Shown in pieces: positions 10,989-34,078 of a stretch of 42,544 nucleotides of DNA. A program made the translations under genes and the position numbers. The stretch lies in the NCBI RefSeq assembly GCF_030646925.1, contig NZ_JAUSKL010000121.1, positions 1 through 42,544 on the forward strand, read 5' to 3'. Within the stretch, counting starts at the first letter, position 1. Each line of letters starts with the position of its first letter. Under the pieces are notes generated by a model. That model was not told where the DNA came from. It did not search any database and saw only the letters and a list, made by a program, of their open reading frames with translations. Source of the DNA: Candidatus Binatus sp. GTDB taxonomy: Bacteria > Desulfobacterota > Binatia > Binatales > Binataceae.

Positions 10989-11210
10989 GCCCGCTCCGTC
11001 GATCGCTCGATTGCGCCGCGCCTCATCGGAAATTCCAGCGCGCGTGAGGGTTCAGCCTAATAGTTATGCGCGCCCAAGGATAGGTGAAGACGCCCACCCA
11101 TTGACGAGCACAGCCATTGTCGAACGATGGAATCATTGCGATAAGAAGGGCTATGTTGGTGTGGTTCAATCGAAGCGTGACTGAAAATGTCAGCCAGGGA
11201 GGAACCTGCG

Positions 11211-11825
11211 ATGTCAACGGAATCAGGCAATGAAAGCGTCCGTGGCAAGCGCGTCGCGCCCGTAAAGTTTGCGCATGCGGTGCTGCGCACCAACAAGTTC
11301 AAGGAGATGGTCCATTTCTATACCACGGTGCTCGAGGCCGAGGTGGTGATGTCCACCGGCACGATCGCGTTCATGACCTACGACGACGAGCATCATCGGC
11401 TGGCGATTGCAGGCGTCCCGGGGCTGGTCGATCGCGATCGGCGCTCGGTGGGCCTCGATCATCTGGCGTACACGTATGCGAACCTCGGCGATCTGGTTTT
11501 CACCTACGAGCGGCTGAAAAAGGCTGGCATCACGCCGGTGGTAACGATCAATCACGGGCCTACGACCTCGATGTACTATCGCGACCCGGACGGCAATCGG
11601 GTCGAATTGCAGATCGACAATTTCGAGAGCGTCGAAAAGCTGAAGGGCTTCTTTCGCAGCGGCGATTTCAAAAAAAATCCGATCGGGGTGAATTTCGATG
11701 CGGATGAACTCGCGCGCAAGTATCACGAAGGCGTGCCCGAAGCCGAACTGATCAGGTACGACGCATCGAAGGGGCTCGACCCGGAAACGCTGCGGCGGCT
11801 GACCGGGATGACGCAGCAACCGTAG
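11211..11825 (+). CDS. VOC-superfamily dioxygenase/glyoxalase-like protein, extradiol type
   Basis: 204-residue vicinal oxygen chelate protein. Metal ligands of a 2-His-1-carboxylate site are visible: His22 (KFAHAVL), His84 (GLDHLAYTY) and Glu132 (NRVELQID). The DPDGNRVE signature and overall fold order resemble small extradiol (catechol 2,3- or biphenyl-2,3-diol) dioxygenases. The start is ATG 11211 with GGGAGGAA eight nt upstream; the frame extends eight codons further 5'. It is followed after 17 nt by a fumarylacetoacetase-family hydrolase, an arrangement common in aromatic pathways. It is the only extradiol candidate in the window and might supply the ring cleavage missing from the operon at 30.4-34.9 kb. 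Confidence 0.82.
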   Translation: MSTESGNESVRGKRVAPVKFAHAVLRTNKFKEMVHFYTTVLEAEVVMSTGTIAFMTYDDEHHRLAIAGVPGLVDRDRRSVGLDHLAYTYANLGDLVFTYERLKKAGITPVVTINHGPTTSMYYRDPDGNRVELQIDNFESVEKLKGFFRSGDFKKNPIGVNFDADELARKYHEGVPEAELIRYDASKGLDPETLRRLTGMTQQP

Positions 11826-11842
11826 CCAGCAATTGAGGAACG

Positions 11843-12718
11843 ATGAAACTCGCGACTTTCAAACAGGATAGATTCACGCGCATCGGCGTCGTGATCGACG
11901 ATTCGATCGTGGACCTCGCAGCGGCAGCGCCCGAGTTGCCGCGCGAAATGATCGCGTTCCTGACCGCTGGCGCGCCGGCGCTCGATCGCGCGCGCAACGC
12001 TGCCAAGGATTCGGCCAAGCGGATTGCGCTCGCGAGCGTGAAGCTCGAGGCGCCCATCCAGCGGCCGCCGGAATTTCTGGCGATCGGGCTCAACTACGCG
12101 GATCACGTCGCCGAAACCAAAATGAAGAAGCCTGAGTTCCCGATGTTCTTCAACAAGCAATCGAGCTGCGTCACCGGCCCCGGCGATCCGATTCATCTGC
12201 CGCGCGTCTCGACCTGGCTCGACTACGAGGGCGAACTCGGTTTTGTGATCGGCCGGCGATGCCGCCACGTGCCGCGCGATCGCGCGCATGAAGTGATCGC
12301 GGGCTATTTCATCGTCAATGACGTCAGCGTGCGCGACTGGCAGCGCCGCGCGCAGACGATGACGCTCGGTAAATCGTTCGACACGCACGGGCCGATCGGT
12401 CCGTGGATCGTGACGCCCGACGAAATCGGCGATCCGCACAAGCTTGATCTGCGCACTTTCGTCAACGACGAAGAGCGTCAGCATTCGAATACGTCGAACC
12501 TGATTTTCGACTGCTTCGCGCAGGTCGAGACGCTTTCGACGGTGTTCACGCTGATGCCGGGGACGATCGTATCGACCGGCACGCCCGGCGGCGTCGCGGC
12601 GGTGATGAATCCGCCGAAGTGGTTGAAGGCCGGCGACGTGGTGCGAATCGAGATCGAGAAAATCGGCAAGCTCGAGAATCGCGTGATCGACGAACCGGCG
12701 AGTACCGACCTGATCTGA
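11843..12718 (+). CDS. Fumarylacetoacetate hydrolase family protein
   Basis: 291-residue cytoplasmic FAH-fold enzyme. LAIGLNYADHVAE, the acidic metal-binding cluster DYEGELGFVIG, NDVSVRDWQ, GKSFDTHGPIGPW and STGTPGGV are all diagnostic. Family members hydrolyse, hydrate or decarboxylate diketo acids, for example acylpyruvases and 2-oxo-hept-3-ene-dioate hydratases, commonly after ring cleavage. It forms a two-gene unit with the VOC protein upstream (17 nt gap, GAGGAA ribosome site). Its stop is separated from the convergent intradiol dioxygenase stop by 2 nt, so the two transcripts must overlap. Confidence 0.88.
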   Translation: MKLATFKQDRFTRIGVVIDDSIVDLAAAAPELPREMIAFLTAGAPALDRARNAAKDSAKRIALASVKLEAPIQRPPEFLAIGLNYADHVAETKMKKPEFPMFFNKQSSCVTGPGDPIHLPRVSTWLDYEGELGFVIGRRCRHVPRDRAHEVIAGYFIVNDVSVRDWQRRAQTMTLGKSFDTHGPIGPWIVTPDEIGDPHKLDLRTFVNDEERQHSNTSNLIFDCFAQVETLSTVFTLMPGTIVSTGTPGGVAAVMNPPKWLKAGDVVRIEIEKIGKLENRVIDEPASTDLI

Positions 12719-12720
12719 AG

Positions 12721-13590
12721 CTATTTGCGTTTCGGATTCAGTACGAAATCGAACTTGATCGAGTCAATTTTCGAGTCGCGATCATTGCTCATTCGGTCGT
12801 TGCCTTGGTCCAACTGGCTATAGCCAACGACTAGTGACTTTCTCGATCCGAAGACCGCATCCGAGTCGAGGTATTCGTCGCCGTCGATATACAGCGCAGT
12901 AGTCAATGTCTCATAGTCAGGCGCGGTAATTAGAAAATGGATATGAGCCGGGCGGAAGGGATGCCGGCCGACTGCATTCAGCATCTGGCCGACTGGACCG
13001 TCGGTCGGCACCGGGTAGCTCGCCGGCTTGATCGAGCGAAACCGGTACCTGCCCTCTGAATCGGTGCGAAAGCGCGCCCGCAGATTCATCTCCGGCTGAT
13101 TCTCGTCCTGCAGATCGTACAAACCGTTTGGCGCCGCCTGCCATACGTCGAGCATCGCATCGGCCACCGGTTGTCCATAGATCGAGGTCACGCGTCCGTG
13201 CAGAACTACGCGTTTTCCCTCGACCGGACCGGCGATATCTGCGTCGAACGGCATCTCCGGCGCGCCCTCGCGGAAGAACGGACCCAGCAAACTCGATTCG
13301 GTAATCTGCTCGGGTTTGTCGCCATTTTGAAGAATATCGACCAGCGCACTGAGCCCCAACGTGTCGGACAGCAGGATAAATTCCTGGCGCTTTTCGTTTG
13401 TGATGTGTCCCGCGGCGGTGAGGAAATTGATGCCGGCCATCCATTCCTCGGGCGTGAGCCGTACCTCGCGTGCGAATTCATGCAGATGACGGATGAGGGA
13501 ATCGAACAATTGATTCAGGCGCGGATCGGGGCACTCCGCGAATCGTTCCCGGACCGCATCTGAAATACTCTGTTCAGTCAGATTCCGCAT
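12721..13590 (-). CDS. Intradiol ring-cleavage dioxygenase, hydroxyquinol/catechol 1,2-dioxygenase type
   Basis: 289-residue non-haem Fe(III) dioxygenase. An N-terminal helical dimerisation domain precedes the catalytic beta sandwich. Iron ligands are Tyr158 (NGLYDLQ), Tyr192 (SYPVPTDGP), His216 and His218 (RPAHIHF), with spacings like catechol 1,2-dioxygenase. Adjacent maleylacetate reductase favours hydroxyquinol (1,2,4-benzenetriol), whose cleavage gives maleylacetate directly, or a substituted catechol. The start ATG 13590 is preceded by AAGGG at eight nt; a GTG two codons upstream is too close to that site. It is the last gene of the minus-strand run, and a homologous gene occurs in 4-hydroxyacetophenone (hap) clusters. 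Confidence 0.88.
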   Translation of the reverse strand: MRNLTEQSISDAVRERFAECPDPRLNQLFDSLIRHLHEFAREVRLTPEEWMAGINFLTAAGHITNEKRQEFILLSDTLGLSALVDILQNGDKPEQITESSLLGPFFREGAPEMPFDADIAGPVEGKRVVLHGRVTSIYGQPVADAMLDVWQAAPNGLYDLQDENQPEMNLRARFRTDSEGRYRFRSIKPASYPVPTDGPVGQMLNAVGRHPFRPAHIHFLITAPDYETLTTALYIDGDEYLDSDAVFGSRKSLVVGYSQLDQGNDRMSNDRDSKIDSIKFDFVLNPKRK

Positions 13591-13645
13591 AGTCACACCC
13601 TTTTTCTGGCAACGTATCAGGCGTTGCGCAAGTACATACCAATAG

Positions 13646-15115
13646 CTAGTGCTCCGATCCGATTAGCTTGTTCGCTGCTCCTTCGACGCGAGTGCCTTTG
13701 AAGAAATCGGGGTTTAGCGCCGTGAAGAAGTGGACCGGATTGCTGAATACGAAATCGCGGAAATCGTCGTCCGTGATCAGTTCTTTTTCCACCAATTCGT
13801 ACGCCTCCGCGGCCGCATCTCTCATGTCAGGCAAGTCGAAGTGCCCGAGATCCGAGCTGTAGAGTACATTCAGGCGCGAGTGGAACGGCAGCTTCCGGCT
13901 GTCGAAGGCCAGCGACGTCAGACGATCGTCGCCTTCGCATCCGAAGTAGAATTTCGGCACGAACAAATCGCGGATGTCCTCCCGCTTCGTGATACCGCAG
14001 CGCGCCCACTCGTCACGATCCTCAGTTTTCTCTTCTGGCGATCCCCAGAGCAGGCCCGAACGCTCGGCTTCAGGATGGTTCTTCAACTCGCCATATCGCG
14101 CACCGTATTTCAGAAATAGCTCGCGCATCAGCTCGTGATCGATTTGCGCGGGGTCGAATTTGTCCAGCACGCTGGGGCTGTGCTTTTCCCAATGCGAAAT
14201 CAGGTCGGCATAGAGGGTGGCGGCCCATGCGACTCCGCCCTCCTGAAATGAAAAGCGAAGTTCCGGAAAGCGGCGCGTGACGCCGCCCAGAAAAAGCGAC
14301 TTGCAGATGGCGTCGGCCGATTGCGCGAAATGACCGATATGATTGAACACGAAATTCGAAATCGAGTTGCGGAATCCGATCCCGGCCGTCGGCGAATGAA
14401 AACTCGGGCAGACCTTCAGTTCGACGCACTTCGCCCACACCGGATCGTAATCGTAGTCGCTGTCCATCGCGAACGTGTCGAGCCAGTACGCATAGCGCGA
14501 CATCTCGGGCGAGGTCCGCTCGACCGCCGGAATCGGGCGGCGCGCAAAGCTTGCCATCACGATCGCCTTCATTCCGAGTTTACCAACTGCATAGTCCAGT
14601 TCCTCGATTGCTTCGCGCGGACTATGCATCGGGATAATAGCTACTGGCGTCATCCGATCTGAGTATTCGCTGTATATATCGGCATTCAACTTGTTAAACG
14701 CGCGGCATAGCCCGAGGCGCAGTTCGTCGTCGCCGACATGCAGGCCGAATAGCCCCATGCTCGGGTAAATCACGGTGAAATCGAGGCCCATTTCGTCGAG
14801 GCGCTCGTGCAGCAGCCGCGGCAACGAGCTGGTCGCGCGATCGAGGGTGTTTTTCGTCGGATGCACCCACCAATGTGGCCGGGTGACGCGCTCGTCGCGG
14901 CGCTGATCCCATGACAGCCGATGCCATCGATACGAAAACGGCCCCGCCGGAAAGGTCTTGACGCGCTCCACCGCCTTGGGGCCGGCAATCTCGCGAAGAT
15001 ATTCGAAGACTGCGGGCTCAAACTCCGCGGTGTGACCGTCCGAATCAATGATGGGATGATTCAGCCGGCTTCGAATCTCGGCTGACCTGGTTCTCGCCGT
15101 GGCAACTGTACTCAT
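13646..15115 (-). CDS. Amidohydrolase-2 (ACMSD-like) family protein
   Basis: 489-residue TIM-barrel metalloenzyme of the amidohydrolase-2 group that includes aminocarboxymuconate semialdehyde and gamma-resorcylate decarboxylases. The N-terminal metal motif is PIIDSDGH rather than the HxH of the classical members, and a late SSDLGHFDLPD provides the conserved Asp. It is longer than the 330-residue decarboxylases. It sits between maleylacetate reductase and the intradiol dioxygenase (gaps 51 and 55 nt), so decarboxylation or hydrolysis of an aromatic acid feeding this pathway is a reasonable guess, not shown. The ribosome-binding site is weak: GAGGGGAG lies 13 nt before ATG 15115. Confidence 0.82.
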   Translation of the reverse strand: MSTVATARTRSAEIRSRLNHPIIDSDGHTAEFEPAVFEYLREIAGPKAVERVKTFPAGPFSYRWHRLSWDQRRDERVTRPHWWVHPTKNTLDRATSSLPRLLHERLDEMGLDFTVIYPSMGLFGLHVGDDELRLGLCRAFNKLNADIYSEYSDRMTPVAIIPMHSPREAIEELDYAVGKLGMKAIVMASFARRPIPAVERTSPEMSRYAYWLDTFAMDSDYDYDPVWAKCVELKVCPSFHSPTAGIGFRNSISNFVFNHIGHFAQSADAICKSLFLGGVTRRFPELRFSFQEGGVAWAATLYADLISHWEKHSPSVLDKFDPAQIDHELMRELFLKYGARYGELKNHPEAERSGLLWGSPEEKTEDRDEWARCGITKREDIRDLFVPKFYFGCEGDDRLTSLAFDSRKLPFHSRLNVLYSSDLGHFDLPDMRDAAAEAYELVEKELITDDDFRDFVFSNPVHFFTALNPDFFKGTRVEGAANKLIGSEH

Positions 15116-15166
15116 TGCAGATAGTCACTCCCCTCGACGACGCGACATTTTCCAATACTCAGTCTC

Positions 15167-16237
15167 TTACGCAGTGACAGTCGGGCGGCGTCCATAATAT
15201 GCGTCATCGAGCAGCCGCCGAATTCCCTCGCGCGTAACCGGGCGCGGATTGTAGTAAGGATTCTGAATAGCCAGTTCAGCCGCGCGATCGAGATCGGTTT
15301 CCTTGAGGCCGTAATCTTTGAGCGCCATCTTTGCGCCGACCGCGATCGCAAGATCGTAAAGTCCTTGCGCGGCGCTCGATGTCCCAATGGCCGTCGCGAC
15401 TCTGCCAATCGCATCGGGCGCCGCGGACGCATTGTAGGCAACCGCGTGCGGCAGAATCGCGGTGTGAGTTTCAGCGTGCGGCAAATTGAAGGCGCCGCCG
15501 ACGGTGTGACAAAGCTTGTGATGCAACGCCATTCCGACCGCGCCGAGCGACATGCCCGCCAGCCATGCCCCGTAAAGCGCCGCGCCGCGAGCGTCGAGAT
15601 TGCGCGGCGCCTTGACCACTACCGGCAGGCTGGCCGCGAGTGCTCGAATGCCTTCCTCTGCCATCAGCGAGATGATCGGATTTGCATCTTCGGCGTAGAG
15701 CGCTTCCACGCAATGCGCGATCGCGTTCATGCCGCTGGCGCCGGAAAGCGACGGCGGCATCGTCAGCGTGAGCGTCGGATCGTAGATGACGGTGCGCGGC
15801 AGGACGCGCAGATCGCGGCCGGTCTTTTTGATTCCGCCTTGGGTGAGTCCCCAAATCGGAGTCATCTCCGAGCCGGCATAGGTCGTCGGGATCGCGATGA
15901 TCGGTAGTTCCGAGACCAGCGCGATCGCCTTGGCGAGGCCGGTCGTCGAGCCGCCGCCGACTGCGACGCAGCAATCGGCGCCGAGGCGCTTCGCTTCGTC
16001 GCGCGCCGATTCGGCGGTTTCGATCGGCACGTGCATGGCGGCCTTCGCGAAAACTCCGGTTGATTTTTCTCCGAGCCGTTCCGCGATCGAGCGCGCTTCG
16101 CCGGATTGCTCCGGCGTCGAGAGCACCAGCGCGCGCCGCGCATGAATCCGCTCGACTTCCTCTGGCAGACGCTCGAGACTGCCGACGCCGAAAATCACCC
16201 TGCACGGCAGCGCCTCGTATAAAAACTTCGGCATCAT
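15167..16237 (-). CDS. hapF: Maleylacetate reductase
   Basis: 356-residue iron-containing alcohol dehydrogenase-like NAD(P)H enzyme that reduces maleylacetate to 3-oxoadipate. Diagnostic blocks: GGGSTTGLAKAIA (dinucleotide site), PTTYAGSEMTPIWGLT, VLPRTVIYDP, SGMNAIAHCVEALYA, ALYGAWLAG, HHKLCHTVGG and LPHAETH. The usual metal His residues are in this region. ATG 16237 follows the aldehyde dehydrogenase stop by 9 nt. It converges both possible branches here: hydroquinone via 4-hydroxymuconic semialdehyde, and hydroxyquinol via the intradiol enzyme. The symbol follows the hap gene order and is an assignment by analogy. Confidence 0.9.
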   Translation of the reverse strand: MMPKFLYEALPCRVIFGVGSLERLPEEVERIHARRALVLSTPEQSGEARSIAERLGEKSTGVFAKAAMHVPIETAESARDEAKRLGADCCVAVGGGSTTGLAKAIALVSELPIIAIPTTYAGSEMTPIWGLTQGGIKKTGRDLRVLPRTVIYDPTLTLTMPPSLSGASGMNAIAHCVEALYAEDANPIISLMAEEGIRALAASLPVVVKAPRNLDARGAALYGAWLAGMSLGAVGMALHHKLCHTVGGAFNLPHAETHTAILPHAVAYNASAAPDAIGRVATAIGTSSAAQGLYDLAIAVGAKMALKDYGLKETDLDRAAELAIQNPYYNPRPVTREGIRRLLDDAYYGRRPTVTA

Positions 16238-16246
16238 CGGCGCCGC

Positions 16247-17716
16247 CTAGCGCGCGTAGAACGGCGGAATCTTCGCATCGACGTTGACCCACACCGATTT
16301 TGGCGTCGTGTATTCCGTCATGGCTTCGAAGCCCATGTCGCGCCCGTAGCCCGAGCCGCGCACGCCGCCGAACGGCGAACCCGGATTAAATCGCTTGTAG
16401 CAGTTGATCCAGACCATGCCGGTGATCATGTGACGCGCAATCAGATGCGCGCGCTGCAGATTGCTGGTCCACAGTCCGCCGCCGAGTCCGTAGCTGGTGC
16501 CGTTGGCGATCTCGATCACTTCGGCGTCGTCCCTGAAAGTGCTCACCGCGACGAACGGGCCGAAGACTTCCTCCTGGCAGACGCGATCGGTTGGACGCGC
16601 GCGCACCACGGTCGGCATCACATAGCATCCGGGCGCAAGTGCGGAATCAGCCGGCGCTTTTCCGCCGAGAATAATCTCGCCGCCTTGCTCTTGCGCAATT
16701 TTGCAGTAGCCGAGCACGCGATCGCGATGCTGCGTCGAAGTGAGCGGACCCATCTCGGTCGCGGGATCGAGCGGATTACCCAATTTGATCGAAGCTGCGA
16801 GTTTCAGAAATCCGTCGAGGAATTGATCGGCGATTTTTTCATGCAGCAGCAGCCGCGAGCCCGCGATACAGGCCTGACCCTGATTGTGGAAAATCGCAAA
16901 CGCGCTGCCGTTAATCGCGGCATTCAGATCCGCGTCGTCGAAAACGATATTCGCGCCTTTGCCGCCGAGTTCGAGCTGCACGCGCTTCAGATTCCCCGCC
17001 GATGCCTCGACGATTTTGCGCCCCGTCATGGTCGAACCGGTGAACGCGATCTTATGCACCTGTGGATGCGCCGCGAGGTACTGTCCCGCGACGTTGCCGT
17101 AACCGGGAATGATATTCACCACGCCGGCTGGAAATCCGACCTCGCGGACCAGCTCGGCAATTTTCAGCGAGCTTAGCGGCGTCAATTCGGCGGGCTTCAG
17201 CACCACGCAATTGCCCGCGGCGAGCGCCGGTCCCATCTTCCAGCTCGTGAACATCACCGGAAAATTCCACGGCACAATCTGGCCGACCACGCCAAGCGGC
17301 TCGCGCACCACGTAGTTCAGCAAGCCCTGCTCGACCGGGATGACGCTGCCCTGGAGCTTGTCGGCCATGCCGCCGAAGTAGCGAAACACGGCGACTGTGC
17401 GCGGCAGATCGAGATTGCGCGTGTCGCGAATCGGATGGCCGGTGTCGAGCGATTCGACTTCGGCGAGCTCGTCGCGATGCGCTTCGATCGCGTCGGCCAG
17501 CTTTGCGATCAGCCGGCCGCGATCGGCCGCCGCGGTATCGCGCCACGCCGGGAATGCCTTGCTCGCGGCGGATACCGCGTCGTCAACGTCGGGCTCGGTC
17601 GCCTCTGCGACCGCGGCCAGTTTCGAGTTGTCGTGCGGGTTCAGCGTTTCGATCGTGCCGCCGCGCCGCGCCTCGACGAATTCACCGCCAATGAAAAGCC
17701 TCGTCTGTAATTTCAT
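16247..17716 (-). CDS. hapE: Aldehyde dehydrogenase, probable 4-hydroxymuconic semialdehyde dehydrogenase
   Basis: 489-residue NAD(P)-dependent aldehyde dehydrogenase. Visible: VPWNFPV, KPAELTP, FTGST, catalytic Glu249 (ELGGKGAN) and nucleophile Cys283 (GQACIAGS), 34 residues apart as usual, then EEVFGPF and the C-terminal PFGGVRGSGYGRD. Family assignment is firm. The substrate is inferred from position between the two-subunit hydroquinone dioxygenase and maleylacetate reductase, the order seen in hap and pnp clusters, where this step makes maleylacetate. ATG 17716 is preferred over a TTG two codons upstream; neither has a good ribosome site. Confidence 0.88.
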   Translation of the reverse strand: MKLQTRLFIGGEFVEARRGGTIETLNPHDNSKLAAVAEATEPDVDDAVSAASKAFPAWRDTAAADRGRLIAKLADAIEAHRDELAEVESLDTGHPIRDTRNLDLPRTVAVFRYFGGMADKLQGSVIPVEQGLLNYVVREPLGVVGQIVPWNFPVMFTSWKMGPALAAGNCVVLKPAELTPLSSLKIAELVREVGFPAGVVNIIPGYGNVAGQYLAAHPQVHKIAFTGSTMTGRKIVEASAGNLKRVQLELGGKGANIVFDDADLNAAINGSAFAIFHNQGQACIAGSRLLLHEKIADQFLDGFLKLAASIKLGNPLDPATEMGPLTSTQHRDRVLGYCKIAQEQGGEIILGGKAPADSALAPGCYVMPTVVRARPTDRVCQEEVFGPFVAVSTFRDDAEVIEIANGTSYGLGGGLWTSNLQRAHLIARHMITGMVWINCYKRFNPGSPFGGVRGSGYGRDMGFEAMTEYTTPKSVWVNVDAKIPPFYAR

Positions 17717-17755
17717 CGCCAAATGCTTCGCGCGTTTAAATCGATCACCGCAGGA

Positions 17756-18733
17756 TCAGAAATCGACCGGATTCGGCTTCAGCTTTTTCTGCGCATAGAG
17801 GTCCGGCAGCGTGCTGTCGGCATTTTCCCACACCAGCAGCATCGCGCGCTTCGGCGAGAATCCCTGGTGGCGGATGTCAGCCGGCATCGCGGCGACGTCG
17901 CCCGGCTTCATGACGGCGCGGGCGCGCGGCGCACCGGTCTCGCGATCCTGGATGTCCCAGTGAATCTCGTCGCTCAACTGCACGAACCATTCGACGCGAT
18001 CGTTGCCGTGGATAATCGGCAGCATGAATTCTTCGGTGGTCGGGCAGAGCAGACTGTCCTTCACCGCCGCCGTAACCGACGGATTCCACGTCACGTCCGA
18101 GCGCGACAGATATCCAAAAAAGTTGAAAGCGTGCACTTCGTTCTCGAAGCCCGGCTCGGCGTGAATTTCGGGCTCGCTTTGATCGACATCCCGGAACTGG
18201 CGATTGACTGGACAACCGTTGTCATCACTGCGGAGCGGGGTATCGTCCTTGAGACCGACCATGCGCTTTGCGACGACGCGCTGGCGTCGCACGGCCTTCA
18301 TATTGTCGCCATTTTTGGCGCCGAATGGAGTGCCGGTTTCTTCAGGCGCCGCGAATGGATCGAAGCGGGCGTTGGTCCAGTCCTCGAGCATCGCCTGGAA
18401 CAGCGCGCGCGTATGATCGCCCTTGAAAGTCTCGACGTGATGCTTGTTCTGTGCGCGATAGCCGGCGTTGTACAGACCCGCGTACACGTCGACGGTGCCG
18501 TAATGATTGGTGGTGCCGAAGACCTCGTCGAAGTTGACCGTGCCATAGAAAAAATTCCACGCGACATCGCGCATCAGCGCGCGCAGGAATTTATCGACCG
18601 GGACGATGTGGCCGCCGCCGGGCCAGTTGATTTGCGCGAAATATTCATCGCGCTCGAAGCGAAATCCGCCGAGCGAAAACGACTGGTAGCCGTACTGATT
18701 GGTTTTGCTTTGCACATTCGTCGTTTCAGCCAT
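17756..18733 (-). CDS. hapD: Hydroquinone 1,2-dioxygenase, large (beta) subunit, HapD/PnpD-like
   Basis: 325-residue cupin-type subunit carrying the Fe(II) site of two-component hydroquinone dioxygenase, which opens hydroquinone to 4-hydroxymuconic semialdehyde. The motif HGNDRVEWF gives His242, Asn244 and Glu248, and His289 follows in DIRHQGF. The spacings (+2, +6, +47) equal those I recall for the iron ligands of PnpCD. The start is ATG 18733 with GGAGAT seven nt upstream; the frame remains open 17 codons further, right up to the stop of the small-subunit gene. It lies 51 nt after the small subunit and 39 nt before the aldehyde dehydrogenase. Confidence 0.87.
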   Translation of the reverse strand: MAETTNVQSKTNQYGYQSFSLGGFRFERDEYFAQINWPGGGHIVPVDKFLRALMRDVAWNFFYGTVNFDEVFGTTNHYGTVDVYAGLYNAGYRAQNKHHVETFKGDHTRALFQAMLEDWTNARFDPFAAPEETGTPFGAKNGDNMKAVRRQRVVAKRMVGLKDDTPLRSDDNGCPVNRQFRDVDQSEPEIHAEPGFENEVHAFNFFGYLSRSDVTWNPSVTAAVKDSLLCPTTEEFMLPIIHGNDRVEWFVQLSDEIHWDIQDRETGAPRARAVMKPGDVAAMPADIRHQGFSPKRAMLLVWENADSTLPDLYAQKKLKPNPVDF

Positions 18734-18784
18734 GTTGGAAATCTCCGCGGCCAGCCGGCCTCGATTCAAATGTCTCAGCGGCAA

Positions 18785-19279
18785 TTATTTTTGGCAGATG
18801 TCGTTCCATCGCTCGACGGTGAGATCGCCCTGAATTGTTTGCAGCAGGATCACGCCGGGCTTCGCGGCGTGAAATTGGTAGGCGGCGCCCTTGGGCAACA
18901 GCGCCATATGCCCTCGACGCGCGACGATATGTCCCATCCTGCGGCCCTTGGGATTGCCTTCGAGCATCGTGGTGCCTTCGTGATCGTCGGCGACAAGCTG
19001 GGTCTCGAGTTTGACGAGACGAATCTCGACTTCGCCGTCCATCACTATCGCGGCTTCATCATGCGATGCGGCGTACCACGGCGAAGTGCCTTCGGCGCGA
19101 ATCGCTTCCAGCACGTATTTCAGATTTTTCCCGACCGCGATTTTCTCGTACGGCTCGGCCTTGGCCGCGACTTCATAAACATTGGAGAAGACGTAATTCT
19201 TCGGATCGTCGTTGATTACCTGGATGCCGCCCTTCTCGAAATGCTCCAGCGATCCGAATCGCGTCTGATGCTGCGTCAT
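18785..19279 (-). CDS. hapC: Hydroquinone 1,2-dioxygenase, small (alpha) subunit, HapC/PnpC-like
   Basis: 164-residue cupin-like protein, the length expected for the small subunit of hydroquinone dioxygenase. Segments such as NYVFSNVYEVAA, PWYAASHDEAAIVMDGEVE and the MGHIVARRGHMALLPKGAAYQ beta-strand block indicate a cupin fold. In the known enzymes this subunit does not carry the catalytic iron but is needed for assembly. ATG 19279 has GGAGG six nt upstream. The identification depends jointly on size, fold and its position directly before the iron-bearing large subunit. Confidence 0.83.
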   Translation of the reverse strand: MTQHQTRFGSLEHFEKGGIQVINDDPKNYVFSNVYEVAAKAEPYEKIAVGKNLKYVLEAIRAEGTSPWYAASHDEAAIVMDGEVEIRLVKLETQLVADDHEGTTMLEGNPKGRRMGHIVARRGHMALLPKGAAYQFHAAKPGVILLQTIQGDLTVERWNDICQK

Positions 19280-19361
19280 CGAAACCTCCGTTCGAGTGCG
19301 ATGAAACTATAGTTCCTTTAATACTGCGCGCACGCGGGCGAACGCATCGCGTAGCGCCGCA

Positions 19362-20570
19362 TTAATGATGGCCGGCGGCGCGGACCACGGTCTTACCCCA
19401 CTTCGGAATTTGCGGCGCGCGCTTACGAGCCATCGCCTTGTTGACGATGCGATCGCGGAGCGCGGCCCTTTCACTGGCGCGCTTCTGATCGCGCTCCTTA
19501 ACTTCGGGCAGCACTGTTTTGCCGAAAAGTTCGATCGACGATGCAAGCATCTCGCTCGGGATGTTGCCGGCCTGCGAGAGAAAGATCACCTGGTCAACGC
19601 CGGACTCTTCGAAACTTAAGAGCGACGCGCGCACGTCGTCAGGCGTGCCGACGCAGCTCTGCGAGCGTCCCGCGTTCGCCAGCGGATCGTCCACCGTCAC
19701 TTTCGCCGGCTGATTTTTGTAGTCGTTCCAGAGGTTGGTTTTGCCCGGCTCGTGATTGCCGAAAAACGCGTAATGCCCGAGCCCGTACATGAAGAAGCCG
19801 TGGTGCTCGGCGGACATTTCGCGCACGCGTCCGCCGTCGCGATCGCAGAGGAACGGGCACGTGATCGCGATCGCAGGATTTACGTCGTAGCCGATCGGAT
19901 CGCATTCGTTTTCGATGGTCTGGTAGTAGTCGCGAACCCATTGGCGCGACTCCTCGGGCGAAACGAATGCGAACGTCAGCGCGCCCAATCCGAGCTTCGC
20001 CGCGAGCAGGATCGTTTCGCGGCGCGAGCACGCGAGCCAGAGCGGCGGATGAGGCCGTTGCAGCGGCTTCGGCACGATGTTGCGGACCGGCGCGGTCAGA
20101 TATTTTCCCTCGAAGCCCGCGAACGGCTCCTCGACCATCATGCGCGTGACGCAGGTGAGGCCCTCGAGCCACATCGCGCGTTTCTCGCTCTGCGGGATGC
20201 GGAATCCGTCCAGCTCGACTTCCGCGGCGCCCTCGCCCGTGCCGAAATCGAGCCGCCCGTCGCTGACGAGATCGAGCGTGGCGATCCGTTCGGCGACGCG
20301 CGCCGGATGATTGATCAGCGGCGCCATCTGCACGATGCCGTGGCCGATGCGGATATTTTTGGTGCGCTGGCTCACCGCCGCGAGAAAAATTTCGGGCGCC
20401 GACGAATGCGCATACTCTTCGAGAAAATGATGCTCGGTGGCCCACACGTAGTCGTAGCCGAGCCGGTCGGCGAGTTCGATATGATCGAGCGCGTCTTTGA
20501 ACAGTCGATGCTCCGAATCGCGGGTCCAGGGACGTGGCAGTTGATGCTCGTAAAATCCGCCAATCTTCAT
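19362..20570 (-). CDS. LLM-class (luciferase-like) flavin-dependent monooxygenase (copy 1)
   Basis: 402-residue TIM-barrel flavin oxidoreductase of the bacterial luciferase family. Seen: YDYVWATEHHF, IRIGHGIVQMAPLINHP, VAERIATLDLVSDGRLDFGTG, PHPPLWLACS and the C-terminal SCVGTPDDVRASL. These use reduced FMN (or F420) supplied by a separate reductase to oxygenate organic substrates, including type II Baeyer-Villiger reactions. It lies 82 nt upstream of the hydroquinone dioxygenase genes and 46 nt after a GFA-family gene, so it probably belongs to the same transcript and may prepare the aromatic substrate. ATG start with GGAG seven nt before. A 45-residue basic tail after the barrel is unusual and absent from the second copy at 23.6 kb. 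Confidence 0.87.
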   Translation of the reverse strand: MKIGGFYEHQLPRPWTRDSEHRLFKDALDHIELADRLGYDYVWATEHHFLEEYAHSSAPEIFLAAVSQRTKNIRIGHGIVQMAPLINHPARVAERIATLDLVSDGRLDFGTGEGAAEVELDGFRIPQSEKRAMWLEGLTCVTRMMVEEPFAGFEGKYLTAPVRNIVPKPLQRPHPPLWLACSRRETILLAAKLGLGALTFAFVSPEESRQWVRDYYQTIENECDPIGYDVNPAIAITCPFLCDRDGGRVREMSAEHHGFFMYGLGHYAFFGNHEPGKTNLWNDYKNQPAKVTVDDPLANAGRSQSCVGTPDDVRASLLSFEESGVDQVIFLSQAGNIPSEMLASSIELFGKTVLPEVKERDQKRASERAALRDRIVNKAMARKRAPQIPKWGKTVVRAAGHH

Positions 20571-20616
20571 CGTGGGCTCCTCGCTCTTACGGGCCGGCTC
20601 CGTTTATAGATCGTTA

Positions 20617-21039
20617 TCACTGGTCGAAGCCCTGCGTCTTGCGCACGTTGTCGTTTAGCTCCAGCCATGGCACCCGATCTGGCCAGAAGGCATGGCGCAG
20701 GGTTTCTGCCGGATGACCGGTGTCCGCGGTCGGCTCGATAGAGGCGCGGCTGACCGCGATCAGGTCCGGCATTGCATCGAGATTGATCGTGAGCGGCGAG
20801 CCGCAATTCTTGCATCGATTGCGATGTACCTTGTCCGAGCTGCTGAAGCTCTGAAGATCGCCGCCCTTGGTCCAACGAAACCCGGCTTTTGGAAAGATCG
20901 ACAGGGTCACGAAGGCAGCGCCCTGGAGCCGCCGGCACACCGAGCAATGGCAATGATGGGTATCGACCGCCGGTTGGGCGATGGCGAACTGGTTTGCGCC
21001 GCAGAAGCATGAACCTTTGATTTCATCAAATTTAGGCAT
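20617..21039 (-). CDS. GFA/CENP-V family zinc protein
   Basis: 140-residue protein with the zinc-binding cysteines of the glutathione-dependent formaldehyde-activating (Gfa) family: GSCFCGAN, HCHCSVCRR and NRCKNCGSPL. Gfa promotes the adduct of glutathione with formaldehyde; many family members have other or unknown roles, so an aldehyde-handling role in this operon is only suggested. ATG 21039 (AGGA eight nt upstream) is chosen over a GTG five codons earlier. It lies between the alpha/beta hydrolase (47 nt) and the luciferase-like gene (46 nt). Confidence 0.84.
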   Translation of the reverse strand: MPKFDEIKGSCFCGANQFAIAQPAVDTHHCHCSVCRRLQGAAFVTLSIFPKAGFRWTKGGDLQSFSSSDKVHRNRCKNCGSPLTINLDAMPDLIAVSRASIEPTADTGHPAETLRHAFWPDRVPWLELNDNVRKTQGFDQ

Positions 21040-21086
21040 CGACGTTATCCTCACAGAGTCTCAAAAGATTTCCTTCCTAATAATCA

Positions 21087-21902
21087 TCACGTCATCGGGT
21101 GATTGCCGAAAAATTCCGCGAGGCCTTCAGCGACCGCGGTTGGATTCTCCATCTGGAGCATATGACCAGCGCCGGGGATGTCGATCGGTTCCGACTGCAC
21201 GATCGTCGCGAGCACTTTGTCGTGAATCTGCGTGAAGATAGGCGCAGTGTGGCGACCGACCATCGCGAGCACCGGTATCTTGATCATGCGGAGGTTCTCG
21301 GCCGACATGGTTTGCGCATACTCCATCAGCGCCGGCAGCTCGATCTGAAAGAAGGTGTCAGCATCGGCGACCGCCCTTTGGTATGCGCCCGGCAAAGCGA
21401 AATCCATCTTGGCGCGATAATCCGCGCCGCCAACGCCCGCCATGAAATTGTCGATCGCGCCGGCCTTGTCACCCGCGTGATAGAGCTGCATCGCAGATGC
21501 CAGTCCGGCCTGCATTTCCGGCCCTTGCGGGACCATCCAGATCAATGCGGGCTCCAGCAACGACAAAGTATGCACGACTGACGCATCCTCGAAGAAAAGT
21601 TGCGTCGCCGTGACGCCGCCATATGAATGTCCGACGACGTGCGCCCGGGCGAGGCCGAGATGGCGAATCAAGCCAAGGCAATCGCGCGCCTGATCCTGGA
21701 TGCGCACCGGCGGCGGCGTATGCGAACTGCCGTCGAAGCCGCGGCGGCGATAGCGGATGAGCTGATACTCGGCGAGCGCCCGTTCGGGCATCATCGGCAG
21801 ATAGGCGTCCGAGACGATGCTGCCGTGGATCAATACGACGGCTTCGCCGCGCCCCTGCGATTCGAATTCGAGCTTGATGCCGTTGACGTTCGCAGTATTC
21901 AT
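21087..21902 (-). CDS. Alpha/beta hydrolase
   Basis: 271-residue alpha/beta-hydrolase fold protein. The oxyanion HG motif is in VLIHGS, the nucleophile elbow GHSYGG holds Ser93, and the catalytic His is His247 in GAGHMLQ. At the usual acid position the sequence reads VGRHTAPIF, with no Asp in the expected place, so the acid may come from another strand or the chemistry may differ. It is the first gene of the nine-gene minus-strand run. Paired with a luciferase-type monooxygenase it could hydrolyse a Baeyer-Villiger ester to release hydroquinone, by analogy with the 4-hydroxyacetophenone pathway. AGGAGA precedes ATG by five nt. Confidence 0.85.
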   Translation of the reverse strand: MNTANVNGIKLEFESQGRGEAVVLIHGSIVSDAYLPMMPERALAEYQLIRYRRRGFDGSSHTPPPVRIQDQARDCLGLIRHLGLARAHVVGHSYGGVTATQLFFEDASVVHTLSLLEPALIWMVPQGPEMQAGLASAMQLYHAGDKAGAIDNFMAGVGGADYRAKMDFALPGAYQRAVADADTFFQIELPALMEYAQTMSAENLRMIKIPVLAMVGRHTAPIFTQIHDKVLATIVQSEPIDIPGAGHMLQMENPTAVAEGLAEFFGNHPMT

Positions 21903-22163
21903 TCGATCTCCTGTGGTTCAGCTCGCATCGCCTGCCGGAGCGGGATTCATGATCATCCAACTGACCGATATTGGCAAATCAGCGGTGAGGGGTTGCCTTC
22001 CGGATTCGATCGATCCTGCTCTCCTCCAAGCTGACGCCGTTCACGCCGGTATGGCGCCGCTCCGCGCCGGTAATACGCCATTGCCGGATATTCGCGCGGT
22101 CGAGGCGTTAGCGCAGTAGTAGAATGTCGCACACGCGGGTTGCGTCACGGGGTGCAAGCGACA

Positions 22164-22616
22164 ATGCAAAAGCATCGGCGTCGGTCACGTTACATATCCA
22201 GCTTACTTGTTTGTGTGGTCGCCACCACCTTCTGCGCGTGCGCGGCACTGCTAGCCGGCCGCGAGGCGCAGGAAAAAAAACACGAGATGATGGTCAAGCG
22301 GATGGACACCGCCCACATCTTCATAACTCCGGGCGATATCCCGGCCGGCAAACCCTACAAGGTGCTGGGGGAATTAAGATACAGCGAGCCCTTTTCCCTC
22401 GACGTGATCGATTCGGCCAAGATCGAAGTGAGGCTGAAGGCTATGGCGCTGGAGAAATATCACGGCGACGCCGACGCGGTGATCAAGGCCAACGTCGACG
22501 TTGACGCTTCCGGTGAGACGGTAACAGTCACCGGCGTAGCCATCCAGTTCGAGTCGTCGGCAGATCGCGAGATGATGCATAAGATGTGGGAAGGAATGAT
22601 CGTGTCGCCGAAGTGA
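22164..22616 (+). CDS. Hypothetical lipoprotein
   Basis: 150 residues from ATG 22164 (the frame extends eight codons to a TTG). The arginine-rich start and hydrophobic run end in FCACA, a possible lipobox, followed by a charged stretch (REAQEKKHEMMVKRM). The body has KPYKVLGELRYSEPF and a DADAVIKANVDVD segment, resembling small exported beta-sheet proteins that carry a metal or ligand, but I recognise no family. It is divergent from the hydroquinone operon across about 260 nt. Its ribosome-binding site is weak. Confidence 0.7.
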   Translation: MQKHRRRSRYISSLLVCVVATTFCACAALLAGREAQEKKHEMMVKRMDTAHIFITPGDIPAGKPYKVLGELRYSEPFSLDVIDSAKIEVRLKAMALEKYHGDADAVIKANVDVDASGETVTVTGVAIQFESSADREMMHKMWEGMIVSPK

Positions 22617-22683: not shown

Positions 22684-23535
22684 TTGAACCACGAATCGAG
22701 ACAGGCGATGCGAAACGATATCGATCGGATTGTTGCGGAAGTCGAACAGAACGGCATAGCCGTCGTGGCAAATTTCATCCCGGCGGATCTATTGCGGCGT
22801 ATCCACGGTGAAGTGGATCGCCTGAACCGGCTCGAGCGGCAGCACGGCGTCGCGTTCCTCGAATCGGAAGGCGCCAACCAGCGCGTGTTCAACCTCGTCA
22901 ATAAGGGCGAAGTCTTCGAGGAGATCGTACAGCATCCAGACGTGATGGCGGTGATGGGGAAACTGCTCGGCGGCGATTTCATCCTGTCGGGATTTTCGTC
23001 GAACACGACCGGGCCGGGCGGCGAGGAGATGATGCTGCATTCCGATTCGGGCTACGTGCCGCCGCCGCATCCCGAGTACCTGCTGTCGGCCAACGCAGTC
23101 TGGATGATCGACGATTTCACCGAAGAGAACGGCGGCACCCGGTACGTGCCCGGATCGCACAAGCTGCGGACGAATCCAGATCCGCGCGAGAATTACGAAA
23201 CGGTGCCGCTGATCGGCAAAGCCGGCTCGATCGCGATCCTGCACGGATACACGTGGCATAAGACCGGGAACAATGTGTCGCGCGATAGCAGGCGGCGCGC
23301 GCTGTTCGCCTACTATGTGCGGCCGTTCCTGCGCGTGCAGGAGAATCATATCGTCTCGGTGCGCGAGGAGGTTTGGCATCGCGCGACGCCAACGCTGCGG
23401 CATCTGCTCGGCGGCGATCTGTGGGTGAACTCGATCGGTTTCTTCGATGGACCGCCGAAGGCGTACCGCGAAGCTGCGTTCCCGCGGCGATCGGGTCTAG
23501 GCACTCCGCCGAAACAGGAATCGCAAGGCAAGTAG
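22684..23535 (+). CDS. Phytanoyl-CoA dioxygenase (PhyH) family protein
   Basis: 283-residue Fe(II)/2-oxoglutarate-dependent oxygenase. The facial triad is visible as His119 and Asp121 (MMLHSDSGY) and His192 (YTWHKTG), with GGTRYVPGSHK between them. The family hydroxylates CoA esters, ectoine, phosphonates and many secondary metabolites, so the substrate is unknown. TTG 22684 has a good AGGAA five nt upstream; ATG 22708 (nine residues in) is the alternative. It lies 60 nt before a luciferase-like oxidoreductase in the same orientation, suggesting a two-gene oxygenase unit. Confidence 0.87.
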   Translation: MNHESRQAMRNDIDRIVAEVEQNGIAVVANFIPADLLRRIHGEVDRLNRLERQHGVAFLESEGANQRVFNLVNKGEVFEEIVQHPDVMAVMGKLLGGDFILSGFSSNTTGPGGEEMMLHSDSGYVPPPHPEYLLSANAVWMIDDFTEENGGTRYVPGSHKLRTNPDPRENYETVPLIGKAGSIAILHGYTWHKTGNNVSRDSRRRALFAYYVRPFLRVQENHIVSVREEVWHRATPTLRHLLGGDLWVNSIGFFDGPPKAYREAAFPRRSGLGTPPKQESQGK

Positions 23536-23595
23536 CTTGACTTAGGCTACTTACCAAGTCTGTGTGAACAATCGTTCAAAAGGATAGCTATACCT

Positions 23596-24690
23596 ATGAA
23601 GCTCGGACTGTTGTACGAAATCCAAATTCCGAAACCGTGGACGCCGGGGATCGAAGCGCGGGCCTACGGCGAAGTGCTCGATCAGGTTGTGCTCGCCGAC
23701 AAGCTCGGATGGGGCTACGTGTGGGCCGTCGAGCATCATCTGCTGCCGCAATGGTCGCATTGCCCGGCGCCCGAGGTGCTATTCGGCGCGATCACGCAAC
23801 TCACTTCGCAGATTCGGATCGGGCACGGAATCGCGTTGCTGCCGCGCAACTTCAATCACGCTATAAGAGTGGCGGAGCGAGCGGCCGTGCTCGACATCCT
23901 AAGCGGCGGGCGAGTCGAGCTCGGCACCGGCCGCGCGGTCACGCTGCAGGAACTCGACGGCTTCGAAGTCAATCCCGACGACACGCAAGCGATGTGGGCC
24001 GAGGCGATCGAGATCCTGGTGCGAGCGTGGCGCGATGAGCCGGTCGAGTACTCAGGCAAGTTCTACAACATCCCGCCGAGTTATGTAGTGCCGAAGCCGG
24101 TGCAGAAGCCGCATCCGCCGCTATGGCTCGCGGGCACCAATCCCGACACCTTCACGCTAGCGGGCCGCAAGGGTCTCGGGATGCTGGGCTTCGTAACCGG
24201 CACTCCAGAGCAGCTAGCGCCGCGGATCGCCGCTTATAAGGAAGCAGTAAAGAATGCCGAGCCGGTCGGCGCATTCGTCAACGATCAGTCCGCAGTTCTT
24301 ATCCAGACTTACTGCGCCGAGAGTCACGATCAGGCAGTTCGCGACGTAACACAGCCACTCGAAATCGTCGCGCAGTTGGCCGCCGAGCTATTCCTGCCGT
24401 GGGCCGAGAAAGGCCGCGAGCGAAAAGCTGAGACCTATAAGTACCTGGCCGAGCAGCAACAGGCAGCTATTCGCGCGGGCGCTAACACGTCCGACGTCGA
24501 GCAAAGGACTCGCGATGGAGTTATAGCTGTCGGCACGCCCGACGAACTGGTGAAGCTATTTCGCACGTATCGCGACATGGGCGTCGATCAGATGCTGACG
24601 TGGGTGCAATTCGGCGGGCTGGAGCATCGCAAGATCATGCAGAGCATGGAGCTGATCGGAAAGTACGTGATTCCGGAACTGAATCGCTGA
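23596..24690 (+). CDS. LLM-class flavin-dependent oxidoreductase (copy 2)
   Basis: 364-residue luciferase-like TIM barrel closely related to the 402-residue copy at 19.4 kb: both begin with MK.G..YE.Q.P.PWT and share WA.EHH, IRIGHGI and PHPPLWLA. It lacks the basic C-terminal tail of that copy. Uses FMN or F420; substrate unknown. AGGA lies 11 nt before ATG. It follows the PhyH gene and is convergent with the MaoC-like gene, leaving a 78-nt gap that holds only a weak 5-bp hairpin. Confidence 0.87.
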   Translation: MKLGLLYEIQIPKPWTPGIEARAYGEVLDQVVLADKLGWGYVWAVEHHLLPQWSHCPAPEVLFGAITQLTSQIRIGHGIALLPRNFNHAIRVAERAAVLDILSGGRVELGTGRAVTLQELDGFEVNPDDTQAMWAEAIEILVRAWRDEPVEYSGKFYNIPPSYVVPKPVQKPHPPLWLAGTNPDTFTLAGRKGLGMLGFVTGTPEQLAPRIAAYKEAVKNAEPVGAFVNDQSAVLIQTYCAESHDQAVRDVTQPLEIVAQLAAELFLPWAEKGRERKAETYKYLAEQQQAAIRAGANTSDVEQRTRDGVIAVGTPDELVKLFRTYRDMGVDQMLTWVQFGGLEHRKIMQSMELIGKYVIPELNR

Positions 24691-27486: not shown

Positions 27487-27795
27487 ATGCACGTAGAAGG
27501 ATTCGATTGGGATGAGGGTAATCGGATCAAATGCGAGGAGCATGGCGTTTCGACGGTGACGATCGAGTCTCTTTTTGCGGGGGAGATCGCAGTTCTACCT
27601 GACCCGCTGCATTCGAAATTCGAGGAACGGTTCAAAGCTATCGGCAAAACGGACAAAGGGCGTGAAATTTTTGTTGTGTTCACCTTGCGACGGCGTCGGG
27701 GCAGGACACTAATTCGGCCGATCAGCGCGCGATACATGCGCAGTAAGGAAATGGAGCACTATGAGAAAGAAACTGCCACGCTTGCGGAGCGATAA
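27487..27795 (+). CDS. brnT: BrnT-family toxin
   Basis: 102-residue type II toxin, RelE-like ribonuclease fold. The family start (GFDWDEGNRIKCEEHGVS), FEERFKAIGKT and the C-terminal LIRPISARYMRSKE block are all visible. BrnT degrades RNA and is neutralised by BrnA. The start ATG 27487 has only a weak ribosome site, and the antitoxin start overlaps the last 35 nt, so translation is coupled. Toxin-first order is normal for this family. Confidence 0.9.
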   Translation: MHVEGFDWDEGNRIKCEEHGVSTVTIESLFAGEIAVLPDPLHSKFEERFKAIGKTDKGREIFVVFTLRRRRGRTLIRPISARYMRSKEMEHYEKETATLAER

Positions 27796-28021
27796 AGAAG
27801 CCGAGGAGTTCGTCGAAAAGGCCGACTTGACCGAATTCGACTTGTCGGAGATGCGACCGATCCGCTTTGAGTTTCAACCCAAGAGCGAGCGAGTCAACAT
27901 GCGCCTGCCCCGGCAACTGCTCGATGCAGTGCGGGCCTCTGCGGCTAAGGCGGGAGTCCCCTACCAGCGCTTTATCCGCCAAGCCCTTGAGCTTGCGGTC
28001 AGACGTCGCGAGACGCGCTGA
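27761..28021 (+). CDS. brnA: BrnA-family ribbon-helix-helix antitoxin
   Basis: 86-residue antitoxin. The N-terminal half is acidic and probably wraps the toxin (EAEEFVEKADLTEFDLSE). The C-terminal half is the DNA-binding ribbon-helix-helix: RVNMRLPRQLLDAVR followed by GVPYQRFIRQALELAV. It binds BrnT and represses the shared promoter. It overlaps brnT by 35 nt and ends about 120 nt before tRNA-Arg. Confidence 0.88.
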   Translation: MRKKLPRLRSDKEAEEFVEKADLTEFDLSEMRPIRFEFQPKSERVNMRLPRQLLDAVRASAAKAGVPYQRFIRQALELAVRRRETR

Positions 28022-32315: not shown

Positions 32316-32343
32316 CTGCACGACGTAAGCGGAGTAGCGAACT

Positions 32344-33156: not shown

Positions 33157-33196
33157 CTGAAATCGATCGCTGATCGAAACAACTCGGGAGGTGGTT

Positions 33197-34036: not shown

Positions 34037-34078
34037 ATTGCGCAAGAGTTTCAACAGACTGACTTGCAAAGGACTGAC

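Follow-up and report, generated by a model that had tools for sequence, protein, structure and literature searches.

A predicted hydroquinone cleavage operon of Candidatus Binatus with a conserved luciferase-family gene and a candidate dinuclear oxygenase

Which compound is being degraded when the genes for hydroquinone cleavage stand in one row with a luciferase-family gene and a gene labelled as an amidohydrolase? The question is raised by nine genes at positions 12721-21902 of a DNA stretch of 42,544 nucleotides from Candidatus Binatus sp. (contig NZ_JAUSKL010000121.1, positions 1 to 42,544), hereafter called the window. The source is a soil bacterium of an uncultured lineage, with a draft genome of 4.58 Mb (98.4% complete, 126 contigs). 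To our knowledge, no member of the Binatia has been cultured, and most of the numerous luciferase-like and PF04909 proteins of this class lack an assigned role. We report that these genes comprise a compact set for hydroquinone ring opening down to 3-oxoadipate, as judged from sequence, that the luciferase-like gene (LLM) accompanies the dioxygenase genes in several related genomes, and that the presumed amidohydrolase (AMH) carries the metal ligands of dinuclear oxygenases.

The hydroquinone dioxygenase and the lower pathway

The genes hapC (18785..19279, minus strand, 164 aa) and hapD (17756..18784, minus strand, 342 aa) are adjacent with a gap of 0 bp and represent both subunits of an enzyme of the HapCD/PnpCD type. 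The HapD (PnpD) protein matched the large subunits of two solved hydroquinone dioxygenases (PDB 5m21 chain B, E 5.8e-139; 4zxa, E 6.6e-136) and the Pfam family PnpCD_PnpD_N (E 1.4e-51). HapC (PnpC) matched the corresponding small subunits (5m21 chain A, E 1e-59; 4zxa, E 1.6e-52), beyond which the best match stood at E 0.89; a Pfam scan found no family for this protein. Residues H259, N261, E265 and H306 of HapD form the pattern HxNx3E followed by a His at +47, and they align with H256, N258, E262 and H303 of the 4zxa chain (positions counted on the alignment), which we take to be the iron ligands. The initial annotation had proposed a HapC/HapD-like dioxygenase with this very spacing and had considered that the cupin pair might fall into an unrelated family. 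The proposal is borne out by the residues and by the 5m21 and 4zxa matches of both subunits. By these comparisons HapCD is a two-subunit hydroquinone dioxygenase, and ring opening of hydroquinone is predicted.

Three further genes belong to the set. The aldehyde dehydrogenase gene (ALDH; 16247..17722, minus strand, 491 aa) encodes a protein with an E value of 3e-227 to 4-(gamma-)hydroxymuconic semialdehyde dehydrogenase (4go4/4go3), against 1e-141 for the next named aldehyde dehydrogenase; its top PDB match, 4o6r, is an aldehyde dehydrogenase without a specific name. The product of the maleylacetate reductase gene (MAR; 15167..16237, minus strand, 356 aa) matched the maleylacetate reductases 3hl0 (E 2.1e-114) and 3w5s (E 3.3e-112), its top match 3jzd being named only as an iron-containing alcohol dehydrogenase. 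The last gene of the row encodes the intradiol enzyme HQD12 (12721..13596, minus strand, 291 aa), which matched 3n9t (E 1.9e-78) and the hydroxyquinol 1,2-dioxygenase 1tmx (E 4.8e-75); the catechol enzyme with the best match reached 7.8e-38. HQD12 is closer in sequence to hydroxyquinol than to catechol dioxygenases. That these three functions follow hapCD had been proposed before and agrees with the PDB matches; the predicted identities of HapCD, ALDH, MAR and the intradiol enzyme can be regarded as secure. In the scheme that we take in part from excerpts of a review and in part presume (PMC3727088), hydroquinone is converted into 4-hydroxymuconic semialdehyde, then into maleylacetate and 3-oxoadipate, while hydroxyquinol is opened to maleylacetate. 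The hydroxylation of hydroquinone to hydroxyquinol is already described in the same excerpts (PMC3727088).

All nine open reading frames lie on the minus strand at the positions given initially, and the short gaps noted there are confirmed (49, 51, 9, 33, 0, 82, 46 and 32 bp, counted from HQD12). From this layout we infer one operon and co-transcription of its genes. Three promoter-like matches were detected in 12400-22300, against 3.7 in shuffled sequence and hence without excess; one of them (21977-21949, minus strand) immediately precedes the first gene. In the same region terminator-like matches were in excess (18 versus 10.7 in shuffles, sd 3.6), and none was listed at the 3' end of the operon. 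The closest named relatives are a 'Deltaproteobacteria' genome, palsa_1115 (HapD 92%), and Candidatus Binataceae genomes.

Linkage of the luciferase-family gene to hapCD

LLM (19362..20570, minus strand, 402 aa; Bac_luciferase PF00296, E 5.3e-50), the candidate first oxygenase, precedes hapC. The initial annotation saw in it a replacement of the type I oxygenase of known pathways, and its conservation was followed across genomes (G), hapD loci (L) and families, using tblastn for all counts of presence and absence and scoring at most 45 LLM candidates per genome. The hapD gene occurred in 27 of the 148 genomes of the class and in 12 of the 41 of the family Binataceae; in the search across the phylum, the source genome was alone among 148. 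An LLM of at least 72% identity was present in 7 of the 12 hapD-bearing genomes of the family and in none of the 29 others (Fisher p 3.5e-5, shared ancestry uncorrected). These seven (the window, G166, G179, G180, G195, G198 and G199) belong to four genera, and in each of them LLM adjoins hapC. The next tier of LLM identity in the family stood at 65% or lower; the LLMs of 58-65% were located elsewhere and gave no substrate clue.

The linkage extends to the whole row. The order LLM-HapC-HapD-ALDH-(MAR)-AMH-HQD12 was found in the seven genomes, down to an LLM identity of 72%. MAR is absent beside hapCD in G198 and G199, and G195 has only a fragment of it, where a second AMH and a gene resembling a CoA-transferase intervene. 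Among the named hapD loci, which are the best 80 of 422 confirmed candidates, four (L009, L010, L011 and L013, of G166, G198, G199 and G179, respectively) retain LLM-HapC-HapD-ALDH with AMH and HQD12, and L012 of G171 has all of these minus LLM. The long-form AMH adjoins HQD12 in eight of the eight family genomes with AMH near hapCD, i.e. the seven and G171, out of the 12 bearing hapD. Counting the distant LLMs of G183 and G194, a luciferase-family gene stands beside hapCD in 9 of these 12. Furthermore, such a gene was located at most 3 kb from hapD, on either strand, in 15 of the 80 named loci, and it follows hapD in four loci of another Binatia family, f65 (L050, L051, L069 and L079). In f65, a divergent group nearby (L128) comprises an extradiol-type dioxygenase, a PF04909 protein, an alpha/beta hydrolase, an LLM and a GFA gene.

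We also found a second pair of LLM and alpha/beta hydrolase genes beside hapCD. In Vineibacter terrae (strain CC-CFT640; L023, 6405-13808) the order is LLM, hydrolase, AraC regulator, HapC, HapD, ALDH and MAR; in Reyranella (L021) LLM and hydrolase stand before hapC and are 95% and 89% identical to the Vineibacter pair. The Binataceae genome G183 (L127, 3494-9704) has the order MAR, HapC, HapD, ALDH, LLM and hydrolase, and its LLM and hydrolase are each 61% identical to their Vineibacter counterparts despite the different gene orders. The LLMs of this pair are just 25% identical to the window LLM. The G183 hydrolase is 32% identical over 119 residues to ABH, the alpha/beta hydrolase that heads the window operon (21087..21902, minus strand, 271 aa; Abhydrolase_6, E 1.8e-19). 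ABH has a GxSxG motif at 91 (GHSYG) and GAGH at 244, and is a candidate aryl-ester hydrolase. Two distinct LLMs with a hydrolase beside hapCD, one pair being shared by Alphaproteobacteria and Binataceae, together with the conserved LLM-hapC linkage, suggest that the feeding of hydroquinone cleavage by an LLM is a recurrent design. The second pair resembles a mobile or re-shuffled functional module.

The fold of LLM is that of its family. Its predicted model (pLDDT 63) gave Z scores of 28.4 to 2i7g, 27.4 to RslO1 (7bip) and 23.3 to 5aec, in keeping with the luciferase-like TIM barrel expected from PF00296. RslO1 is its nearest solved relative by identity (28%); in the model alignments LLM is 18-19% identical to 3,6-diketocamphane monooxygenase. 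Luciferases and F420-dependent reductases both appear at Z 23-25, so the model indicates the family fold only and cannot tell an FMN enzyme from an F420 enzyme. Baeyer-Villiger activity of a catabolic LLM, acting on progesterone, is described in excerpts on the pdc LLM of Caenibius tardaugens (PMC12239570). RslO1 is presented, in the available part of its description, as a proposed epoxide-forming enzyme and not as a Baeyer-Villiger enzyme (PMC8093152), so that likeness to RslO1 does not establish a Baeyer-Villiger activity of LLM. A luciferase-family partner of hapCD is well supported by the gene arrangements, with a chemistry that is putative. The initial claim of a replaced type I oxygenase is accordingly strengthened in its linkage and by the second pair, and left as conjecture in its Baeyer-Villiger part.

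A second LLM of the window (37% identical to the first) lies with a PhyH dioxygenase gene at 22684-24690, divergent from the operon. This pair was kept together in G166 (L009), at 86% and 93% identity.

Metal ligands of the PF04909 protein

AMH (13646..15115, minus strand, 489 aa) matched Amidohydro_2 (PF04909) alone in Pfam. According to excerpts of one report, PF04909 holds hydrolases, carboxylases, hydratases and monooxygenases (PMC10811679). The dinuclear site of AibH2, as far as the excerpts of another describe it, consists of D25, H27, H211, E265, D337 and H340, with D342 near; PtmU3 has Glu313 at the place of D342, and the acid there is given as conserved only in dinuclear members (PMC7782822). 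AMH carries D26, H28, H240, E292, D422, H425 and the acid D427 (D26xH28, D422xxH425xD427), and thus has the three carboxylate and three His ligands and the acid within DxxHx[DE] of the dinuclear oxygenases. These seven residues were invariant in all 12 long homologues aligned (six from operons and six paralogues from the source genome), one of which has an extra residue between the D and the H.

A profile search with the AMH group retrieved PtmU3 (E 2e-10) and DitZ (6e-10), then ACMSD (8e-9). In the profile alignments the Glu of PtmU3 and DitZ meets E292 of AMH, where ACMSD has a His. Glu313 of PtmU3 meets D427 in a weak separate match (-1.4 bits, covering D422, H425 and D427). Residues H240, E292, D422, H425 and D427 of AMH are therefore aligned with PtmU3, and the N-terminal DxH is placed by motif only. 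The ligand set led us to revise the label of amidohydrolase: AMH is a candidate dinuclear oxygenase, probably mislabelled as a hydrolase. HQD12 is its constant neighbour, which suggests that AMH supplies hydroxyquinol. Tentatively, and with more doubt than confidence, we propose that AMH, as an oxygenase with an Fe/Fe or Mn/Fe dinuclear site, would produce hydroxyquinol through hydroxylation of hydroquinone or demethylation of methoxyhydroquinone, beside an LLM that would replace the flavoprotein Baeyer-Villiger monooxygenase.

The source genome has long-form paralogues of AMH on contig C77, next to an HpaB-family hydroxylase, and on contig C103, where they form tandem pairs next to luciferase-family genes. 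On C103 two divergent groups surround a gene that resembles a regulator, and both contain long PF04909 genes in a tandem pair recalling AibH1/AibH2; this 33 kb contig (G000; L165, L166) holds eight luciferase-family matches.

The proposed pathway and its alternatives

We lean, by a modest balance of the evidence, towards an operon for the breakdown of a para-substituted phenol, in which two routes of ring opening join at maleylacetate. The substrates and reactions of LLM, the hydrolase and AMH are those that we infer. Along one route, LLM, using reduced flavin made elsewhere, would oxidise the substrate to hydroquinone; the substrate might be a 4-hydroxyaryl ketone, converted into an ester that the alpha/beta hydrolase would then split. 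Along the other, AMH, as a dinuclear Fe/Fe or Mn/Fe oxygenase, would convert hydroquinone, a methoxylated derivative or another analogue into hydroxyquinol, which the intradiol dioxygenase would open to maleylacetate. Maleylacetate reductase would then yield 3-oxoadipate. Sequence comparison supports the identities of HapCD, ALDH, MAR and the intradiol enzyme, the ligand set of AMH and the conserved linkage.

LLM and AMH might instead be chance or loosely related neighbours of a standard hydroquinone/hydroxyquinol operon. Both families are hugely expanded in the 4.58 Mb genome, with 85 luciferase-family and 38 PF04909 matches, some of them fragments. LLMs are so common that chance neighbours are possible and indeed to be expected in Binatia; weight was therefore laid on conserved order and not on nearness. 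A general clustering of the two families was not striking and was not used as support: 8 of the 38 PF04909 matches lie within 2.5 kb of an LLM versus 4.5 expected if LLMs were evenly spread, and four of the eight are on C103. Moreover, the surroundings of hapCD in G184 and G197, and the 1.7 kb next to hapC in G171, yielded no LLM, whatever its type. Chance is nevertheless unlikely in view of the gene order kept in seven genomes, the confinement of the LLM group to hapD-bearing genomes, the luciferase-family gene beside hapCD in most of these, the adjacency of AMH and HQD12 in every case, and the second pair kept across different gene orders. Another reading makes LLM an F420H2-dependent reductase, e.g. 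of a benzoquinone or a nitroaromatic compound, with hydroquinone coming from a separate HpaB-type phenol monooxygenase. The genome encodes an F420 ligase (with a PF01933 match on the same contig at neighbouring coordinates), so that LLM may depend on F420 rather than being an oxygenase, and even its oxygenase role is putative. No flavin reductase adjoins LLM, the three PF01613 matches of the genome being on other contigs, and with F420 reductases at Z 23-25 the fold gives no decision. In G180 a phenol hydroxylase gene of the HpaB family (L123, 5390-6853; assigned by Pfam) is located close upstream of LLM, and in G179 a gene resembling it (L013, 6225-7613) stands there with a MarR gene between; such a gene could be the other source of hydroquinone. 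We give this reading a low probability, since the nearest solved relative by identity, RslO1, is of the FMN type, luciferases stand high in the list, and a hydrolase beside both types of LLM fits an ester-forming oxygenase better.

For AMH, the competing assignment is a mononuclear PF04909 decarboxylase or hydratase, like LigW, gamma-resorcylate decarboxylase or LigJ, that would give hydroxyquinol from a dihydroxybenzoate. PF04909 does include aromatic decarboxylases, and such enzymes were among the matches of both the profile search and the weak structural comparison. The decarboxylases of PF04909 carry HxH. AMH has an Asp for the first His of this motif and Glu292 where ACMSD has a His, and six HxH-type homologues recognised by eye (L033, L043, L050, L051, L069 and L079) have no DxxHx[DE]. 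The acid at D427 is, moreover, reported as specific to dinuclear members. These differences make a mononuclear enzyme rather improbable.

Several findings weigh against the proposed two-route pathway. On the side of AMH, the motif is common among the PF04909 proteins of the source genome: in 52 distinct homologues, DxxHx[DE] with an N-terminal DxH was present in all 16 full-length long forms and in 21 of 34 shorter forms, two more shorter forms having DxxHx[DE] only and two cut fragments no motif. Being widespread among the PF04909 homologues of these genomes, it is not special to this operon. The AlphaFold model of AMH is poor (pLDDT 44.5, six sequences), and its comparison gave DitZ and PtmU3 (Z 7.5) no clear lead over ACMSD (7.0); nothing was therefore rested on the structure of AMH. 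None of the nine operon genes encodes a Rieske or other reductase, and among 20 window proteins scanned by Pfam the sole Rieske match was the ring-hydroxylating dioxygenase at 30430-31755. A Rieske or other reductase encoded nearby helped to find several dinuclear PF04909 oxygenases and is not stated as a requirement. The 98%-complete genome yielded no PF01144 CoA-transferase, which leaves the step after 3-oxoadipate unexplained; one stands beside hapCD in the relatives G194 (Pfam) and G195 (by resemblance). On the side of LLM, the points already given on the proposed epoxidase RslO1, the F420 ligase, the flavin reductase and chance neighbours count in the same direction. Five hapD-bearing genomes of the family are without an LLM of the 72% group: G194 has a different LLM (27%) before hapC, G184 has neither LLM nor AMH beside hapCD, and only hapD was recovered in G197.

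The two genes at the head of the operon add to these points. ABH recurs beside LLM only in G166, of the same genus (89%); no similar gene was found upstream of LLM in the other relatives, G198 showing only 263 bp there, and in G199 (L011) a hydrolase of the Peptidase_S15/CocE type precedes LLM instead. The Vineibacter hydrolase, 25% identical to ABH over 115 residues, is nearer to another hydrolase of the window, at 33191 (34% over 125). Between ABH and LLM lies a gene for a GFA-family protein (20617..21054, minus strand, 145 aa; PF04828, E 2.6e-20), which had been included in the pathway at the outset. No GFA gene was found near hapCD in the 11 hapD-bearing relatives of the family within the DNA available, which in G198 reaches 263 bp past LLM and in G171 1.7 kb past HapC. 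The sequence between LLM and ABH was too divergent from that of the relative L117, in a nucleotide alignment, to date an insertion or loss of GFA. In two f65 genomes hapD is followed after 18 bp by a GFA gene of like orientation (G157, L111 245-679, Pfam E 2e-19; G158, L133 8716-9150, E 3e-20), and GFA-like genes occur near hapCD in G148, G150 and G153. GFA was rejected as a core component, and its place in the pathway is weakened to a possible looser link. Co-occurrence with hapCD, which the initial annotation had put up as a check, was obtained in the family for LLM (7 of 12) and for the amidohydrolase-like gene (8 of 12) but not for GFA.

The conserved operon ties one LLM and one PF04909 protein to a well-understood pathway and gives a short list of substrates to consider, i.e. 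hydroquinones, hydroxyaryl ketones and methoxyhydroquinones. Were AMH an oxygenase, many 'amidohydrolases' of soil bacteria might be mislabelled oxygenases, and the family of dinuclear PF04909 oxygenases would extend into aromatic-ring cleavage.

Gene neighbourhood and comparison with known systems

Other genes of the window may concern aromatic compounds as well. A glyoxalase/dioxygenase-family gene and an FAA-hydrolase gene on the plus strand (11187-12718) lie tail to tail with HQD12 at 2 bp and possibly represent further ring-fission functions. At 30430-34858, also on the plus strand, Pfam identified the alpha subunit of a Rieske ring-hydroxylating dioxygenase and an alpha/beta hydrolase; by eye only, neighbouring genes look like those for a beta subunit, a dehydrogenase of the SDR type and a hydratase. 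A Meth_synt_2 gene (cobalamin-independent methionine synthase-like) is present in the window (6463-7575), and such genes occur near hapCD in f65 (L128, 7871-8869), directly before hapC, and in a Rokubacteria locus (L028, 1373-2434). These neighbours hint at methyl-group handling, perhaps of methoxylated hydroquinones. The window also holds a pair resembling a BrnT toxin and a CopG antitoxin (27487-28018).

A literature search, covering titles and abstract openings with few subscription journals, found no LLM or PF04909 oxygenase linked with hydroquinone dioxygenase. No case of a dinuclear PF04909 oxygenase in aromatic-ring cleavage appeared in the literature searched, nor did a role for DitZ.

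The hap cluster of Pseudomonas fluorescens ACB, for 4-hydroxyacetophenone, shares with this operon HapCD, ALDH, maleylacetate reductase, intradiol dioxygenase and an alpha/beta hydrolase; its gene content beyond the review PMC3727088 is what we take it to be. The operon differs from it by a luciferase-family enzyme, none of the nine genes encoding a Baeyer-Villiger monooxygenase of type I (Pfam), and by the additional PF04909 gene with dinuclear-oxygenase ligands. A regular expression for what we take to be the type I fingerprint was absent from the whole window, in a scan run without a positive control. The same pattern appeared in 0 of 80 loci, 52 of which extend 5 kb on both sides, and with no positive control this count was not used as evidence of absence. 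The pnpCDEFG cluster of Pseudomonas sp. WBC-3, for para-nitrophenol, shares PnpCD and PnpE, and the window proteins strongly match the solved PnpCD and PnpE. That cluster presumably also encodes a maleylacetate reductase and a hydroxyquinol-type dioxygenase. In place of its PnpA/PnpB pair, which is missing among the nine genes, the operon has LLM and AMH.

LLM shares its fold and Pfam family with type II Baeyer-Villiger and luciferase-like monooxygenases (3,6-diketocamphane monooxygenase, the pdc LLM and RslO1), from which it differs by the low identities given above and by having no reductase gene alongside. AMH shares PF04909, the six metal ligands and the seventh acid with PtmU3, AibH2 and SfbO, as far as the excerpts describe them (PMC7782822, PMC10811679); it exceeds the PtmU3 chain by about 130 residues (489 versus 356), with weak overall similarity, and, unlike that group, sits in an aromatic ring-cleavage operon without a Rieske protein. 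Taken as a whole, the operon represents a new variant of the hydroquinone/hydroxyquinol pathway.

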